A DNA stretch of 64,000 nt from positions 1-64,000 of the forward strand of contig JAJEHQ010000015.1 in assembly GCA_022823625.1 (NCBI GenBank), read 5' to 3'. The translations under genes were made by a program, and so were the position numbers. Shown piece by piece: positions 55,739-62,768 of this stretch. Position 1 is the stretch's first letter. Every line of letters starts with the position of its first letter. Source of the stretch: Gammaproteobacteria bacterium (GTDB lineage: Bacteria; Pseudomonadota; Gammaproteobacteria; Arenicellales; JAJDZL01). Under the pieces are notes generated by a model. It was not told the DNA's origin. It worked only from the letters and a program-made list of their open reading frames with translations, and did no database searches.

Positions 55739-56773
55739 CTAGTTCAACAAATCTAGGCCATCTCCCCAGCAATCCGAAAGGCAGTAACCTAGAGGATAGG
55801 GATCAGATGGGTCAACCCCAATCTGACGAATACCATGAATCCATCCCCGTCCCTTTATGCCAGGGACAACCGCCGGTCTTCCGTAAACCTCGGTTGTTCT
55901 CTTTAACTCAACTTCAAAACGGCTGTCAATAATGGAAAGTGCACGAAAGGTATCGCCAGGCTGAACTTCCCCGCGCGCATGCATATACGCCATTCGCGCT
56001 GAATTACCGGTCCCGCAAGGCGATCGATCGACTCTTCCGGGCGGTAGAATGGTTGCACTTTTCAAGGTGCCGTCGCTCATCGTTGACATGAACATCACGT
56101 AAGAAAGTCCATTCAGTTCAGGATGTTCAGGATGGACAATCTGAAGTTGCTGATTGGCACACCTCTGTACGCTGCTACCGGCTTCAACCAGTGCTCTTGC
56201 TGAATTGGGTTCAATGGTCAGGCCAAACTCTGACGGATCAACCAGTGCATAAAAAATCCCACCGAAAGCGATGCTAAGTTGAATTTGGCCATTTCCTGGT
56301 ACATTGACCACGGTATCTAGCGCATCGACATAACAAGGTGGCATTTCCATCTTCACGTTGATACACGTGCCATTTGAACACTCTGCAGTTGTGGTCACAA
56401 GACCGGCGGGTGTGTCGAGCACAACAGTGGTTTCAGGCTCGCGCATCTCTAAAATTCCAGTTTCGAGCAGGACAGTTACGGTACAGATTGCGTTGGATCC
56501 GGACATCGCATGTGCCTTGTCACCCTGCAATACAATCATGCCCGCGTGTGCATCAGACTTTGTCGGGGGCAGACACAGAACTGTGCTCATCTGCGCGCAA
56601 CCGCGCGGTTCAAATACCAGAAATCTTCGAAGCGCATCGCCGTCACCGTTCATGTAGCCGAGCTTGTCAACCATTGTTTCACCCGGTACATCCAATATGC
56701 CTCCCGTTACGACCCGACCGACTTCTCCTTCGGCGTGTGCTTCGACCATGGTTACGGATTTAGACCAGCGCAT
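55739..56773 (-). CDS. Proline racemase superfamily, probable trans-3-hydroxy-L-proline dehydratase
   Basis: A 344-residue cytoplasmic protein of the proline racemase/hydroxyproline epimerase superfamily. The second catalytic Cys is kept (DRSPCGTGNSARMA), but the first motif, normally M(C)GHG, reads MSGSNAIC, so Cys is Ser. Family members with Ser or Thr there and Cys at the second site are trans-3-hydroxy-L-proline dehydratases. Divergent from an SDR that resembles DHRS6, with 164 bp between. The dehydratase call is inference from these residues. Confidence 0.78.
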   Translation of the reverse strand: MRWSKSVTMVEAHAEGEVGRVVTGGILDVPGETMVDKLGYMNGDGDALRRFLVFEPRGCAQMSTVLCLPPTKSDAHAGMIVLQGDKAHAMSGSNAICTVTVLLETGILEMREPETTVVLDTPAGLVTTTAECSNGTCINVKMEMPPCYVDALDTVVNVPGNGQIQLSIAFGGIFYALVDPSEFGLTIEPNSARALVEAGSSVQRCANQQLQIVHPEHPELNGLSYVMFMSTMSDGTLKSATILPPGRVDRSPCGTGNSARMAYMHARGEVQPGDTFRALSIIDSRFEVELKRTTEVYGRPAVVPGIKGRGWIHGIRQIGVDPSDPYPLGYCLSDCWGDGLDLLN

Positions 56774-56937
56774 CGTAATTTTGGATTCAATGTAATGTAA
56801 TAAAGTGTTTCTACTGATGACAGCTGTAGACGACTAGAGTGCGCCTATTTTATTCAATGGAGAATTTCGTCAACTTTGACACATCATTGATAATATCGTA
56901 CTAAGTTTACGGAAGACCTGACATCGGAGCAAATTTA

Positions 56938-57678
56938 ATGGGAAGATTGGCGAACAAAACCGTATTTATGACAGCTGCGGGAATGGGTATCGGCCGTGCG
57001 AGTGCAATCGCGATGGCAAACGAAGGCGCGCGCGTGTATGCAGCAGATATTCATCGACCTTCACTGGATAGTCTGGCAGAAGAAAGCAGCAAAATAAGTA
57101 CCATTGAACTGGATGTTACCGACTCTAAGGCAATTTCAGAACTACCTAAGATCGTTCCGGTTCCTGATGTCTTGTTCAATTGCGCCGGTTACGTCCACGA
57201 CGGAACGATTATGGATGCCGATGACGAAGTATGGGACCTGTCTATCGCGATCAACGTGCGAAGTCATGCCCGAGTGATCGAGACATTTTTACCTCAGATG
57301 ATTGAAAATGGCGGCGGCTCGATCATCAATATGGCTAGTGTAGCGTCCGCAATTACAGGAGCAGCAAACCGTGCTGTCTACAGTGCGACCAAAGGCGCTG
57401 TGATGGGACTGACTAAGGCAATAGCACGAGATCATGTCAAACAGGGCATTCGATGCAATGCAGTTTGTCCAGGCACCGTGTTAACTCCATCGCTGAAAGG
57501 ACGCTTACGAGCCAGAGGAGACTATGACAAAGCTTACGAAGAGGTGTTGAAACGCCAGCCTACCGGTAAGATGGCCCATCCGGAAGATATTGCCCCAATC
57601 ATTGTTTACCTTGCGTCGGATGAGTCAAAGGTGGCAACCGGGCAATTTTTCGTTGTGGACGGCGGCTGGACCATTTGA
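56938..57678 (+). CDS. SDR oxidoreductase, DHRS6/BDH2-like
   Basis: A 246-residue short-chain dehydrogenase. NAD-binding TAAGMGIGRASAIAMA, acidic ADIH for NAD preference, NCAGYVHDG, catalytic Ser-Tyr-Lys with YSATKGAVMGLTKAIA, and CPGTVLTPSL. Whole-length resemblance to human DHRS6/BDH2 (MGRL..K....TAA..GIG; QGIRCN.VCPGTV.TPSL) is strong. DHRS6 has been described as a 3-hydroxybutyrate dehydrogenase and as a 4-oxo-L-proline reductase. Next to a hydroxyproline-family enzyme, an oxoproline or hydroxyproline substrate is plausible. Confidence 0.8.
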   Translation: MGRLANKTVFMTAAGMGIGRASAIAMANEGARVYAADIHRPSLDSLAEESSKISTIELDVTDSKAISELPKIVPVPDVLFNCAGYVHDGTIMDADDEVWDLSIAINVRSHARVIETFLPQMIENGGGSIINMASVASAITGAANRAVYSATKGAVMGLTKAIARDHVKQGIRCNAVCPGTVLTPSLKGRLRARGDYDKAYEEVLKRQPTGKMAHPEDIAPIIVYLASDESKVATGQFFVVDGGWTI

Positions 57679-57687
57679 TTTTGTACC

Positions 57688-58575
57688 ATGGAAAATATTG
57701 CATTCTTTGGCCTTGGAGCAATGGGCGAGGGGGTTGCCGCGAACCTGCTCCGAGCAGGTTATACAGTCAACATTACTGTACATCGAAGTCGCGAGGCGGC
57801 TGATCGACTAATCGCACTTGGCGCAACGCTTCACCAATCGAAATCTGAAGCAGCCAAGGCCGGTGATATTGTCATCTTTTGCCTTCCAAATTCCAATGTC
57901 GTCGAAGCGACGATAAATGAAATCTGGAACGAGTTGGAAGAACGCTGCCTAGTTGTTGATACAGGAACATCATCGGTACGTCAATCATTTCAGTTGGCTG
58001 AAAGACTTTGTTCGAGAGGAATTCAGTTTGTTGAAGCACCGCTAGCTGGTGGTAAAGTCCAGGCTGCCGCTGGCGAACTGGGAGCATTTGTCGGTTGCAG
58101 CAACCAGACATTTGAGCGAGTCGAACCGCTGCTGAAGAAATTTTGCAAATCAGTACAGTATTTTGGTCCAGTCGGATCCGGTAGCAGTGCAAAATTGATC
58201 AGCAACTACCTCGTCCTCGGTATGGTTCGTCTCATAATTGAGACCTTCCATGCTGCAGATTCGCTGGAAGTTGATTGGGCCAAATTCTACGAAATCATCC
58301 GCCAGGGATCTTCAAACTCTATGGCGCTACAGCGAATAGTCGGCAGCATCCTGGAAGACGATGACTACGGTGGCTATGTATTTACAGTGAGAAACGCGCT
58401 CAAGGACTCTCGCTATATTGCCGAACTTGGTGAATCAATTTCTCAGGCTGTTCTGAGCGACACTGCGTTGAAACTCTTTGCCGAGGCCAACGAACTTGGA
58501 TTTGGAGACTTGCAGGTATCAGAACTTCTGCAGCGCGAGGTTCGTCTGCAACTGAGCGAACTGAGCAGCGAATAA
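57688..58575 (+). CDS. 3-hydroxyisobutyrate dehydrogenase-family NAD(P) enzyme
   Basis: A 295-residue beta-hydroxyacid dehydrogenase. N-terminal Rossmann FFGLGAMGEGVAANLLRAGY, VVDTGTSS, FVEAPLAGGKVQAAAGELGA, and the catalytic-Lys block GSGSSAKLISNYLV. C-terminal helical domain complete. Family members oxidise 3-hydroxyisobutyrate, tartronate semialdehyde and similar. Nine bases after the SDR gene, so co-transcribed. Substrate not evident. Confidence 0.82.
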   Translation: MENIAFFGLGAMGEGVAANLLRAGYTVNITVHRSREAADRLIALGATLHQSKSEAAKAGDIVIFCLPNSNVVEATINEIWNELEERCLVVDTGTSSVRQSFQLAERLCSRGIQFVEAPLAGGKVQAAAGELGAFVGCSNQTFERVEPLLKKFCKSVQYFGPVGSGSSAKLISNYLVLGMVRLIIETFHAADSLEVDWAKFYEIIRQGSSNSMALQRIVGSILEDDDYGGYVFTVRNALKDSRYIAELGESISQAVLSDTALKLFAEANELGFGDLQVSELLQREVRLQLSELSSE

Positions 58576-58607: not shown

Positions 58608-60149
58608 TTAGTGTAGCCGTTCGCGTTTAGGTAACGTAGTCTGCCTGGGTGGCTCGCAGCCGGTGTCGCAACATTGACCCGGTTGTGGCGTTATGCCCGG
58701 AGAATCTTTATGCAATCCCCTTTCGATCAATCGTTCGACCAGATCAGTCTTATCGCCGATTGGATAATTTCGAAATATTTCTTTCTTCAGTGCCTCGGGG
58801 GAGCCACCGCCGTGTACACTGATGACTGAGTACCAGGCACCTGAATGAGAGGCGGTTAAGTCCTCTATTAATCGGGCAACGGCTGCGCGCCGGTGAGGCG
58901 GCATGTCCGCGCTGGCTGACATCAGTGTATCTAGCTTGTCCATGGTGTCCGGATTGTGGTCCTCTTCGGGATGCGGAAGCGCAACAATCAGTCCGCCCGA
59001 GACTGAATTGGCAATCCGGTGCATGTCATAGATGGAGTGTGCCAATAGCAGTTTGCCAAGATTCGAATACACTGCGTCCGGTTCGTAATTTCCGGCATCG
59101 GTGGTTTTGCCATACACCGAAGCAGAAACGCCACATGCATAAAAGCTCTCAACTGTCTTGATCAGCTCTACCATCGCCTCACGTAAGTGGGGCTCAGCCT
59201 CCATATCAAGCCCGTTGGTTTCGATCATCATTGCGGATGCACCGATCAGCAAATCTCCAAAGCCGGCACGTGCTCCAATACATGTGTGCCGGTGGTGGTT
59301 CGCATAAGTTTTAGTGAGGTGCTCCGAGTGTTCCCACTCACCACACATATAAACTCGATCGTAGGGAACAAAGACATTCTCAAAAACGCAGACTCCCGTC
59401 GATTGACCGAAACGACTGGAAAATTGAGCGGCAGCATCTCCGGGTCTTCCCGCTGGGCGCGCAATGATGGTCAAACCCTGCGCATCAATGGGCACTTGGC
59501 AGGCTACTGCAAAGTCCTTATCTTCCCGTTGCATGTTGCGGCCCGGCAGTACGAACAGTTCGTGCACATAGGGTGCCGCAGTAACGATCGCCTTGACTCC
59601 TGATATTTCTATGCCGTCAGGCCGGCGTGCAACAATTCGCACGTGACTGTCAGGTTTAGGCTGTTCGTTTGGTCTGAGAGAACGGTCTCCCTTGGCATCC
59701 GTCATGGCGATTCCGACGGTGAGATCATTGTCCTGAATTCGGTGCATTTGTTCGATGAGCCGCGAACTGTATTCCGTATTGTGTGTGGAGTCAATTTGAT
59801 AGGTTGACTGATACAGTGCATTAAGGCCGTCCATGGTCAGGTAGCGCATTGCACACCCGGTCAACTGGCAAAGTGCGCGGACATATTCCAGCTTTGACAG
59901 CAGGTCCTCCGTATCTCGATTGATGTGGACAAAGCGGTTCACCGTGCGGCCCGATGTGTGCTGTTCAGCCAGTGCATACTCGCGGTGTTCTGTAAGTCTG
60001 GCAAAGTCATAGGTCATGCCGATGGCATTGACACCTGGAGCCAGTTGAGGATGATCAGCGACAGACTCGACACGGTCACCGCGCACGTAGACTGTCGGGT
60101 TGTATTCTCGAAGTGATTCGCAGTAGTCTTGAGATGTCATCAAATTCAT
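58608..60149 (-). CDS. HpaB-family (4-hydroxyphenylacetate 3-hydroxylase-like) protein
   Basis: A 513-residue FAD-linked enzyme of the HpaB superfamily, which includes flavin-dependent phenol hydroxylases and 4-hydroxybutyryl-CoA dehydratase. Seen: MTSQDYCESLREYNPTVYVRG, the N-terminal cap, and NHHRHTCIGARAGFGDLL centrally. The iron-sulfur ligand pattern of the dehydratase is not evident, so a monooxygenase is more likely. It ends in an unusual Cys-rich tail (PGQCCDTGCEPPR). The ATG at 60149 has AAGGAAGG seven bases upstream and overlaps ccoS by 4 nt, coupling it to oxidase maturation genes. Confidence 0.78.
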   Translation of the reverse strand: MNLMTSQDYCESLREYNPTVYVRGDRVESVADHPQLAPGVNAIGMTYDFARLTEHREYALAEQHTSGRTVNRFVHINRDTEDLLSKLEYVRALCQLTGCAMRYLTMDGLNALYQSTYQIDSTHNTEYSSRLIEQMHRIQDNDLTVGIAMTDAKGDRSLRPNEQPKPDSHVRIVARRPDGIEISGVKAIVTAAPYVHELFVLPGRNMQREDKDFAVACQVPIDAQGLTIIARPAGRPGDAAAQFSSRFGQSTGVCVFENVFVPYDRVYMCGEWEHSEHLTKTYANHHRHTCIGARAGFGDLLIGASAMMIETNGLDMEAEPHLREAMVELIKTVESFYACGVSASVYGKTTDAGNYEPDAVYSNLGKLLLAHSIYDMHRIANSVSGGLIVALPHPEEDHNPDTMDKLDTLMSASADMPPHRRAAVARLIEDLTASHSGAWYSVISVHGGGSPEALKKEIFRNYPIGDKTDLVERLIERGLHKDSPGITPQPGQCCDTGCEPPRQTTLPKRERLH

Positions 60150-60322
60150 GAATCGACCTTCCTTGAAACGGCTGACTCGACCTGATCGTCATCCATCAGA
60201 ACCCGCATCGGTTCGCGGTCTAGATCTTCGTATTGACCGCTCTTGACTGACCAGAGAAAGAATGCGGCGATTACAATCGACACGATGATCGTTAGTGGAA
60301 GCAGCAGGTACAGGATTTCCAT
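60146..60322 (-). CDS. ccoS: cbb3 oxidase maturation protein CcoS
   Basis: 58 residues, missed by the ORF track. One N-terminal helix (MEILYLLLPLTIIVSIVIAA), then FFLWSVKSGQYEDLDREP, the CcoS signature, and a short acidic tail. Needed for cofactor insertion into cbb3 cytochrome oxidase. Seven bases after ccoI; its stop overlaps the HpaB-family start. Confidence 0.92.
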   Translation of the reverse strand: MEILYLLLPLTIIVSIVIAAFFLWSVKSGQYEDLDREPMRVLMDDDQVESAVSRKVDS

Positions 60323-60329
60323 TGCTTAA

Positions 60330-62768
60330 TCAAGTGTTACCGTGTTCATACGCAGTAATCCTGAGTGAATTGCCAACAACCAGGATCGAACTGACTGACA
60401 TTCCGATCGCCGCGGCAAGTGGCGGAACAAATCCCGCAGCCGCCAGTGATATACCAATTAAATTGTACGCGATTGCCCAAACCGTGTTGTTGCGCATCAC
60501 TTTGACAGTAAATTCAGCGAGGTTTCGTGCGGTCACCAACAAATCCAGTCGGTCGTCAAGCAATAGCACATCAGCATTCGCTTTTGCAATATGTTGCGCG
60601 CGCGCCGGCGCGATCGAAACATTGGCAATTGCCAGAGTCGGCGTATCATTGATTCCATCACCGACCATCGCGACAGACTCTCCAAGTTTCTGATGACTGC
60701 GTATGATGCCCAGTTTACCCTTCGGCGAACAGCCCCAGTGAACCTCAGCAATGTTTAACTCTTCAGCAACTCGTTCCGCCTCGGACTGTCGGTCTCCAGT
60801 TACCAGTGCAAGTCTGGCTGGAAAGTCTTTTATTCGACCGATCAGACGAAATGCATCATCCCTTAAGGGGTTGTCAAAATGAAATTTGGCCACGACACCG
60901 GTGTCATCGCTCAAATAGGCGATCAAGCCAACCTGATCCATTGGTTCTGAAATTTTGTCAATGGCGCCTGGAAGCTTTGAATCGATGTACGATCGCGAAC
61001 CCAGGTAATATCGTTTTTCATTGACGTATCCAGCAATGCCACCACCATGCTCAACTTCCACCTCAGTTACTTCTGATTCATCACTCTCGAGGCTGTCAGT
61101 CAAAGCGCGGCAGATCGGGTGGTCAGAAAAAGAAGAAAGCGACGCGGCTAAATCGTGTGCTTCAGACTGACTCAATTGACCAAAAATTTCGGTCCTTGTC
61201 AGGTGTGCCTGGCTTTGGGTCAGCGTTCCGGTTTTGTCAAACAAAAAGGTATTGACTTTGGCGAGGGCTTGCACCGCATCAGGGTGAGCGATCAGAATAT
61301 TGCGCTTTGCAGCTGAATTGACCGCTGCGGTCAGGGCTGTTGGTACAGCAAGCGCCAGAGCACAGGGACACGCTACGACCAGTACTGCAATCGGATAAGA
61401 GAGCCAGTTGGTGTTGCCGGACCAGTACCAAAACACACCAATGCATAATGCGATCATCACCACGGTTACTGAAAAATATCCGGCAATTTGATCCGTCAGT
61501 CGTGTGTTGGAAGGTTTTTCTGACATTGAATCTTCCAGTAGCTTGACGATTGAGGCAAGTGCCGATTCTGCGCTAGGCCGAGTCACTCGAACCACAACAG
61601 CATTGCTGACGTTAATTGATCCGCCAAAAACTGAATCTCCGATGGTTCGATGTACAACGTTTGACTCACCTGTCAGAAGTGCTTCATCAACATCTGTTGA
61701 ACCCGATACGATTTCGCCATCGGCAGGAATTGCCTCTCCAGGTTTGATCAATACAAAGTCGTCAACCGCGAGACGCAGTGCTGGAACCACAACAGTGGAA
61801 TGGACCTGGCCCGGGTCGACGAGACGATTGGCATGGTTTGGCGTAGAGGCGCTCAAACTGGTGATTCGGTCTGTCATACGACGATAAGCGCCCTTCTCCA
61901 GAAATCTGGCAATTAACTGGATGAATACAAACATCGCAATGCTGTCGTAGTAAATTTCTCCAGACCCAGTGAGTGTCGCTGTAAGACTCGCGAAGAACGC
62001 GATGATGAGTCCCAATGCGATGGGAACGTCCATCGTTGCTGTTCGCTGTTTCAGGTCGCGCCAGGCACCAGCGAATATCGGTGTAGCAGAATAAAACAGC
62101 ACGGGCAGCACAAACAACAGACTGAGGCGGCGAAACAGTTCCTCATATTCAAATTGAATGGACGTCCACGCACTTGAGTAGAGTGCAACCGCGATGACCA
62201 TAATCTGCATTCCAAAAACGCCGGCAACACCCATGCGTTTGAGAAGATCTTGGTGCTGAGCATTAACAATTTCCGAAATAGCGGTGCTGCTGTATGGCAC
62301 AAGTCCATAGCCAAGGCTCTGAGTGCGGCTGACTATTTCTGAAAGGGAAATCTCACTTGAGCGCCACGAAACCTTTAGTTTTTGAGTTCGATAATTGAGT
62401 TTTACATCGACTACACCAGGCTGAGAGACCAGGTGGCTTTCAATAAGCCAAACACAGGTTGGGCAATGAATGTTGTGAACGATAAAAGCCGTTGTACTTT
62501 GTTCACCGTCAGAATCGACATATTGCTGATGAATGGCTTCATCATCAAGAATTTCAGAAAAAGTCTGTGGCAGAGTTTCATTCGATTCATCGACTGGGGG
62601 CGGCAGAGCCGTACGCTTTTTGTAATAAGCTTCAAGCCCACTCTCGTGAACAATTGCGGCAACCGTTGCGCAGCCTTCACAACACATCGGGTGACTGACG
62701 CCGTCTATTTCACGAACAACCTTGCGGCCTGATCGAATGACGCTGCCGCAGTGATAACAGTCAGTCAT
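60330..62768 (-). CDS. ccoI: Copper-transporting P-type ATPase CcoI
   Basis: Moves copper across the inner membrane for cbb3 oxidase assembly. 812 residues: N-terminal Cys-rich region (CYHCG; MCCEGCATV), an HMA domain with HCPTCVWLIE at about 100, eight helices with the CPC motif (VVACPCALALAVPTAL), phosphorylation motif DKTGTLT, and GDGINDTPTLA. Followed by ccoS; no ccoG or ccoH nearby. Divergent from the Yip1-family gene and ccoN. Confidence 0.92.
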   Translation of the reverse strand: MTDCYHCGSVIRSGRKVVREIDGVSHPMCCEGCATVAAIVHESGLEAYYKKRTALPPPVDESNETLPQTFSEILDDEAIHQQYVDSDGEQSTTAFIVHNIHCPTCVWLIESHLVSQPGVVDVKLNYRTQKLKVSWRSSEISLSEIVSRTQSLGYGLVPYSSTAISEIVNAQHQDLLKRMGVAGVFGMQIMVIAVALYSSAWTSIQFEYEELFRRLSLLFVLPVLFYSATPIFAGAWRDLKQRTATMDVPIALGLIIAFFASLTATLTGSGEIYYDSIAMFVFIQLIARFLEKGAYRRMTDRITSLSASTPNHANRLVDPGQVHSTVVVPALRLAVDDFVLIKPGEAIPADGEIVSGSTDVDEALLTGESNVVHRTIGDSVFGGSINVSNAVVVRVTRPSAESALASIVKLLEDSMSEKPSNTRLTDQIAGYFSVTVVMIALCIGVFWYWSGNTNWLSYPIAVLVVACPCALALAVPTALTAAVNSAAKRNILIAHPDAVQALAKVNTFLFDKTGTLTQSQAHLTRTEIFGQLSQSEAHDLAASLSSFSDHPICRALTDSLESDESEVTEVEVEHGGGIAGYVNEKRYYLGSRSYIDSKLPGAIDKISEPMDQVGLIAYLSDDTGVVAKFHFDNPLRDDAFRLIGRIKDFPARLALVTGDRQSEAERVAEELNIAEVHWGCSPKGKLGIIRSHQKLGESVAMVGDGINDTPTLAIANVSIAPARAQHIAKANADVLLLDDRLDLLVTARNLAEFTVKVMRNNTVWAIAYNLIGISLAAAGFVPPLAAAIGMSVSSILVVGNSLRITAYEHGNT

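Follow-up and report, generated by a model that had tools for sequence, protein, structure and literature searches.

4-Hydroxybutyryl-CoA dehydratase/vinylacetyl-CoA isomerase (AbfD) holds a [4Fe-4S] cluster whose ligands we take to be C99, C103, H292 and C299, and its catalytic site is presumably made up of E257, Y296, K300 and E455. These ligand numbers and roles are reportedly those of Martins et al. 2004 and Zhang et al. 2015. In this study, the AbfD residue identities were read from the alignment with structure 1u8v. AbfD falls in one superfamily with HpaB, the oxygenase component of 4-hydroxyphenylacetate 3-monooxygenase; the superfamily itself is already known. A system of unrelated fold, mercuric reductase (MerA), has an active-site CxxxxC pair that is served by cysteines at the C-terminus of the opposing monomer (PMC4500099).

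We analysed a stretch of 64,000 nucleotides, referred to here as the window, which contains a gene for a putative flavoprotein directly after ccoS (Table 1). The product of the 513-aa open reading frame matched Pfam HpaB_N (1e-80) and the HpaB C-terminal domain (1.7e-48), and the ccoS product matched Pfam FixS/CcoS (5e-18). The preliminary description of this DNA had reported a Cys-rich CCDTGC tail on this flavin-type reading frame, and the protein does end in ...QPGQCCDTGCEPPRQTTLPKRERLH. The ATGA overlap and the ribosome site that it had described at ccoS were both found as well. The same overlap was seen in a congeneric genome (G043) whose protein is 97% identical to that of the window, so the ATGA is not an assembly error. 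In a third congener (G044), the ccoS-flavoprotein pair is separated by a 12-nt gap and has no strong ribosome site.

Table 1. Coordinates of the features at the flavoprotein locus in the window.
Feature	Position	Strand	Remark
Putative HpaB-superfamily/AbfD-fold flavoprotein of the CCxxGC-tail clade	58608..60149	-	513 aa, ATG start
ccoS, cbb3 oxidase assembly	60146..60322	-	58 aa; the flavoprotein gene is its neighbour in one sub-lineage of the genus alone
ccoI-type cation-translocating P-type ATPase	60330..62768	-	cation P-type ATPase with N-terminal metal-binding domain
ATGA overlap, ccoS stop/flavoprotein start	60146..60149	-	ATG 60149-60147, TGA 60148-60146
AAGGAAGG ribosome-binding-site-like sequence	60157..60164	-	7 nt before the flavoprotein ATG, inside the end of ccoS
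Codons of tail motif QPGQCCDTGC, residues 489-498	58656..58685	-	found in 33/33 full-length homologues
Codons of C94-QLTG-C99 (CxxxxC)	59853..59870	-	C99 = AbfD cluster ligand C99; C94 clade-specific
Codons of H286-RHT-C290	59280..59294	-	H286 = AbfD ligand H292; C290 replaces AbfD Y296
3-hydroxyisobutyrate-dehydrogenase-family gene	57688..58575	+	convergent; beside the flavoprotein gene in 5/6 genomes of the genus

From this junction the gene had been assigned to the ccoI-ccoS maturation operon, an assignment that the comparison of genomes contradicts. The flavoprotein gene was present in all six genomes of the genus, with 80-97% identity to the window protein, and it adjoined ccoS in three of them (the window's genome, G043 and G044; the overlap is missing in G044). 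Outside the genus, 29 loci were compared and ccoI was never beside the gene; some of these contigs are short, and the adjoining genes are visible in most. In G045, G046 and G047, the gene comes after a methyltransferase-coaE-mnmA group, in which coaE and mnmA were named by eye from the sequences. G046 and G047 are single-contig chromosomes, and ccoI-ccoS lies ~170 kb and ~1.1 Mb, respectively, from the flavoprotein gene. The ccoS-HpaB adjacency, whose recurrence elsewhere had been put forward as a check, is thus nearly unique to one lineage; the conserved linkage across genomes that marks the cbb3 maturation operon (ccoGHIS) was absent, and an operon-function link with ccoI-ccoS was ruled out by synteny. 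These results indicate that the flavoprotein gene is not a cbb3 maturation factor, and that it changes context between genomes and largely stands on its own. Its position after ccoS appears, from the sequences compared, to have arisen recently by rearrangement in a single sub-lineage of the genus, where the gene may borrow the transcription and translation of ccoI-ccoS. As this case shows, an ATGA overlap and a strong ribosome site can occur together by accident within one lineage.

At other loci, different neighbours recurred. Neighbour clustering placed a divergent TetR regulator beside the flavoprotein gene at 14 loci, with a partial match in L057. An isochorismatase-type hydrolase with conserved D, K and C positions in the alignment was found near the gene at 10 loci, and it had no match at E<=1e-10 in any of the six genomes of the window's genus. 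A cluster of the flavoprotein, the divergent TetR regulator and the isochorismatase-type cysteine hydrolase was observed in L074, L131, L132, L133, L029, L056, L076, L077, L078 and L024; in L024, the hydrolase gene is directly upstream of the flavoprotein gene in the same direction. In the f12 genomes (L025-L028), the flavoprotein gene shares 4 bp with a downstream gene of 381 aa. This second gene had no Pfam or NCBIfam match, and a gene for a group II PLP decarboxylase comes after it; the three are possibly a small biosynthetic operon. In the window itself, a gene of the proline racemase/trans-3-hydroxyproline dehydratase family and an SDR gene (55739-57678) adjoin the 3-hydroxyisobutyrate-dehydrogenase-family gene, and an enolase-superfamily gene joins these three families in L018. 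This cluster looks like a hydroxyproline-type catabolic one.

The family of the 513-aa protein was examined by sequence, profile and predicted fold. The nearest solved structures by sequence were AbfD (1u8v, 311 bits) and N. maritimus 4HBD (6vjr, 288 bits), with HpaB at 110 bits or less, and a family profile search also put 4-hydroxybutyryl-CoA dehydratases nearest. An AF2 model built from eight close homologues alone reached a pLDDT of 36 and was discarded; with two remote homologues from IMG/VR contigs included, the core became usable and the mean pLDDT was 76.5. The best fold match of this model was 1u8v (E 1.4e-37, TM 0.84), followed by 4HBD and then by HpaB-type enzymes (TM 0.76-0.79). 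Pfam PF11794 and PF03241 both scored over their cut-offs, which together with the fold places the protein in the HpaB/AbfD superfamily. The NCBIfam HpaB equivalogs scored far under theirs (126 bits against 480, and 86 against 885), and no NCBIfam equivalog fits the protein. No flavin reductase gene (HpaC) lies beside the flavoprotein gene, the only Flavin_Reduct match of the genome being on another contig, and none is among the recurring neighbours. The 'flavin-type hydroxylase' of the preliminary description does not agree with these scores, and we rejected identity as an HpaB monooxygenase on their account and for the lack of reductase linkage.

In a maximum-likelihood tree, the tailed proteins, for which Pseudomonadota genomes and plasmid records were sampled, formed one clade (support 100/99). 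This clade lay outside the AbfD clade as its sister, both with 100% bootstrap, and Rhodococcus proteins and HpaB-type enzymes fell outside the two. The root and the long HpaB branches of the tree are uncertain, and the tailed and AbfD clades are well separated. Sequence, predicted fold and tree alike point to a sister of 4-hydroxybutyryl-CoA dehydratase and not to an HpaB. Since the protein lacks the residues that define AbfD or HpaB, we assign it to neither family. By domain match, proteins of this family receive the name '4-hydroxyphenylacetate 3-hydroxylase' despite missing these residues, and a search of the open-licence literature brought up no account of an HpaB/AbfD protein with a CCxxGC tail. 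The window's genome, which is related to Arenicellales metagenome-assembled genomes, also encodes a second HpaB-superfamily protein (G000:C31:96671-98083; L002, L062), which is 25% identical, has no Cys tail and groups with a Bacillus HpaB-type protein. A complete AbfD-type protein with all four cluster ligand residues was observed on a contig classed as viral (L098, IMGVR_UViG_3300009566_000006); the gene is either host DNA at a contig end or a carried metabolic gene.

We then compared the active-site residues of the tailed clade with those of AbfD. Two cluster ligands, C99 and H292, are kept, whereas C103 is replaced by Y and C299 by A in 28/28 tailed proteins; all four ligands are present in 11/11 AbfD-type proteins. 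The catalytic residues E257, Y296, K300 and E455, which are E, Y, K and E in 11/11 AbfD-type proteins, are T/V, C, R and I in the tailed clade. The window protein has eleven cysteines, of which C94, C99, C217, C290, C493, C494 and C498 are invariant in the clade (28/28). Across a set of 35 sequences, C94, C99, C217, C290, H286, Y103, A293 and R294 were invariant (35/35), and C339 was present in 34. In the AF2 model, H286 and C290 stand one turn apart (i/i+4) in a predicted helix (272-311). C94 lies close to the end of another helix (80-97), and the loop after it contains C99. In 28/28 tailed proteins, the tail is accompanied by the gained cysteines C94 and C290 and by the absence of C103 and C299; this combination was seen in 0/11 AbfD-type and 0/7 other superfamily proteins. 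A single ancestral event could lie behind these changes, so their correlation is not independent evidence of coupling.

The Cys tail, looked for in homologues as the preliminary description had proposed, proved universal among full-length ones. The motif QPG[QRK]CCxxGC was present in 33/33 full-length relatives (an EPG variant in two) and in none of the 11 AbfD-type or 7 other superfamily proteins, and C493, C494 and C498 were invariant in the 33 sequences that reach the C-terminus. The two tailless members of the 35-sequence set are a contig-end fragment and a reading frame whose match stops at residue 348. In the latter (L135, G879:C187), the open frame runs on beyond the end of the family match, and this is probably a frameshift in that assembly. 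The mean majority fraction was 0.93 in the tail motif, compared with 0.46 and 0.36 in its flanks and 0.76 in the core. When 399 genomes were scanned with a DNA pattern for the tail, nine had a hit: eight of these were the flavoprotein gene, and the ninth (G496) arose by chance in a non-gene frame. A control with the pattern reversed gave no hit among the matches listed for the 399 genomes. Because the tail is conserved in 33/33 sequences, it is functionally constrained. Metal binding by the tail is possible; equally strong conservation would be expected of a structural tail or of one that binds Zn at the surface.

On the basis of the observed homology and conservation, the loss of AbfD ligands and catalytic residues and the shifting neighbourhood of the gene, we consider it fairly probable that this is a stand-alone FAD enzyme of a clade sister to AbfD, with a cysteine-rich centre served by the tail and a post-ccoS position that arose by recent rearrangement. 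FAD would be bound by the 513-aa protein, as its predicted fold suggests, in an AbfD-type pocket. The kept ligands C99 and H286, with the clade-specific C94 and C290, may form a cysteine-rich redox or metal centre beside the FAD, which would take the place of the AbfD C99/C103/H292/C299 cluster. The flexible tail cysteines of the same or a neighbouring subunit would fold over this centre as ligands or as a thiol/metal shuttle. Residues 460-513 of the model are all below pLDDT 50 (~30 at the C-terminus) and the tail is unplaced, so that we infer its reach to the flavin site.

The nature of this centre can be read in two ways, and under either the tail would be expected to reach the flavin site. 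It is possible, though we put it forward only tentatively, that an iron-sulfur or other metal cluster has been relocated here and performs radical chemistry of the AbfD flavin/cluster type, with a substrate other than that of AbfD. In this arrangement, held equally tentatively, C99 and H286 would be kept and C94 and C290 (or tail cysteines) would replace C103 and C299. The invariance of the two AbfD ligands in 35/35 sequences, the sister relationship to the AbfD clade and the closeness of the new invariant cysteines to the kept ligands (one helical turn or five residues) argue for a relocated cluster. However, the AbfD active-site positions are also altered (K300R, Y296C, E257T, E455I), so the chemistry must differ. 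Somewhat more doubtful is a thiol/disulfide or metal-ion relay that would resemble mercuric reductase by convergence. C94-x4-C99 beside the flavin would then exchange, with the same doubt, with a CCxxGC tail that picks up a soft metal ion, a disulfide or a persulfide. The invariant C94-x4-C99, the invariant CC pair near a flexible C-terminus and the MerA precedent (PMC4500099) are consistent with such a relay, but the fold is unlike that of disulfide oxidoreductases and there is no pyridine-nucleotide domain, so an external reductant would be needed. In addition, no metal-resistance or thioredoxin genes were recognised adjoining the flavoprotein gene.

Two further readings stay closer to the preliminary description. 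An HpaB-type flavin-dependent aromatic (or N-) monooxygenase whose tail binds zinc in a structural role would fit the Pfam HpaB domains, the predicted HpaB fold (TM 0.76-0.79) and the one Flavin_Reduct gene in the genome. We regard it as rather improbable, and less likely than the cluster or the relay, since the protein is far under the equivalog cut-offs and closer to AbfD by 200 bits, and the reductase gene is unlinked and has no counterpart among the recurring neighbours. It is very improbable that the gene acts with ccoI-ccoS in maturation of the copper/haem cbb3 oxidase, with the Cys tail binding copper. Two genomes have the overlap and a strong ribosome site, and three have the adjacency, which would suggest this, but gene and tail persist in the three congeners and at the 29/29 outside loci that lack the adjacency, and two f12 genomes with the gene have no ccoI match at E<=1e-60. 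Beyond the preferred reading of a stand-alone FAD enzyme, we would call it unlikely that the clade is a new AbfD-fold enzyme class whose re-sited catalytic cluster (C94/C99/H286/C290) is gated or completed by the mobile CCxxGC tail for flavin-cluster or flavin-thiol chemistry, in hosts that also carry an oxygen-respiring oxidase.

Compared with known systems, the tailed protein shares its fold and Pfam domains with HpaB and TftD/HadA-type enzymes, but its match to them is ~200 bits weaker than to AbfD and under the equivalog cut-offs, no flavin reductase is linked, and the HpaB and TftD/HadA-type proteins examined have no Cys tail. The Rhodococcus plasmid proteins L092 and L093, annotated HpaB N-terminal/4-hydroxybutyryl-CoA dehydratase, form the next branch outside the two clades and, unlike the tailed clade, have zero cluster cysteines and no tail. 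MerA has a CxxxxC pair and flexible C-terminal cysteines as the tailed protein does, a likeness of arrangement and not of descent. AbfD (1u8v; 6vjr) is the best match in sequence, profile and fold and has the ligands C99 and H292 in common with the tailed clade, which differs from it by the loss of C103 and C299, the replacement of K300, Y296, E257 and E455, and the addition of invariant C94, C217 and C290 and the C-terminal CCxxGC tail. With an invariant set of seven cysteines and two of four cluster ligands exchanged, this clade is a testable case of the rebuilding of a radical flavin/[4Fe-4S] site.
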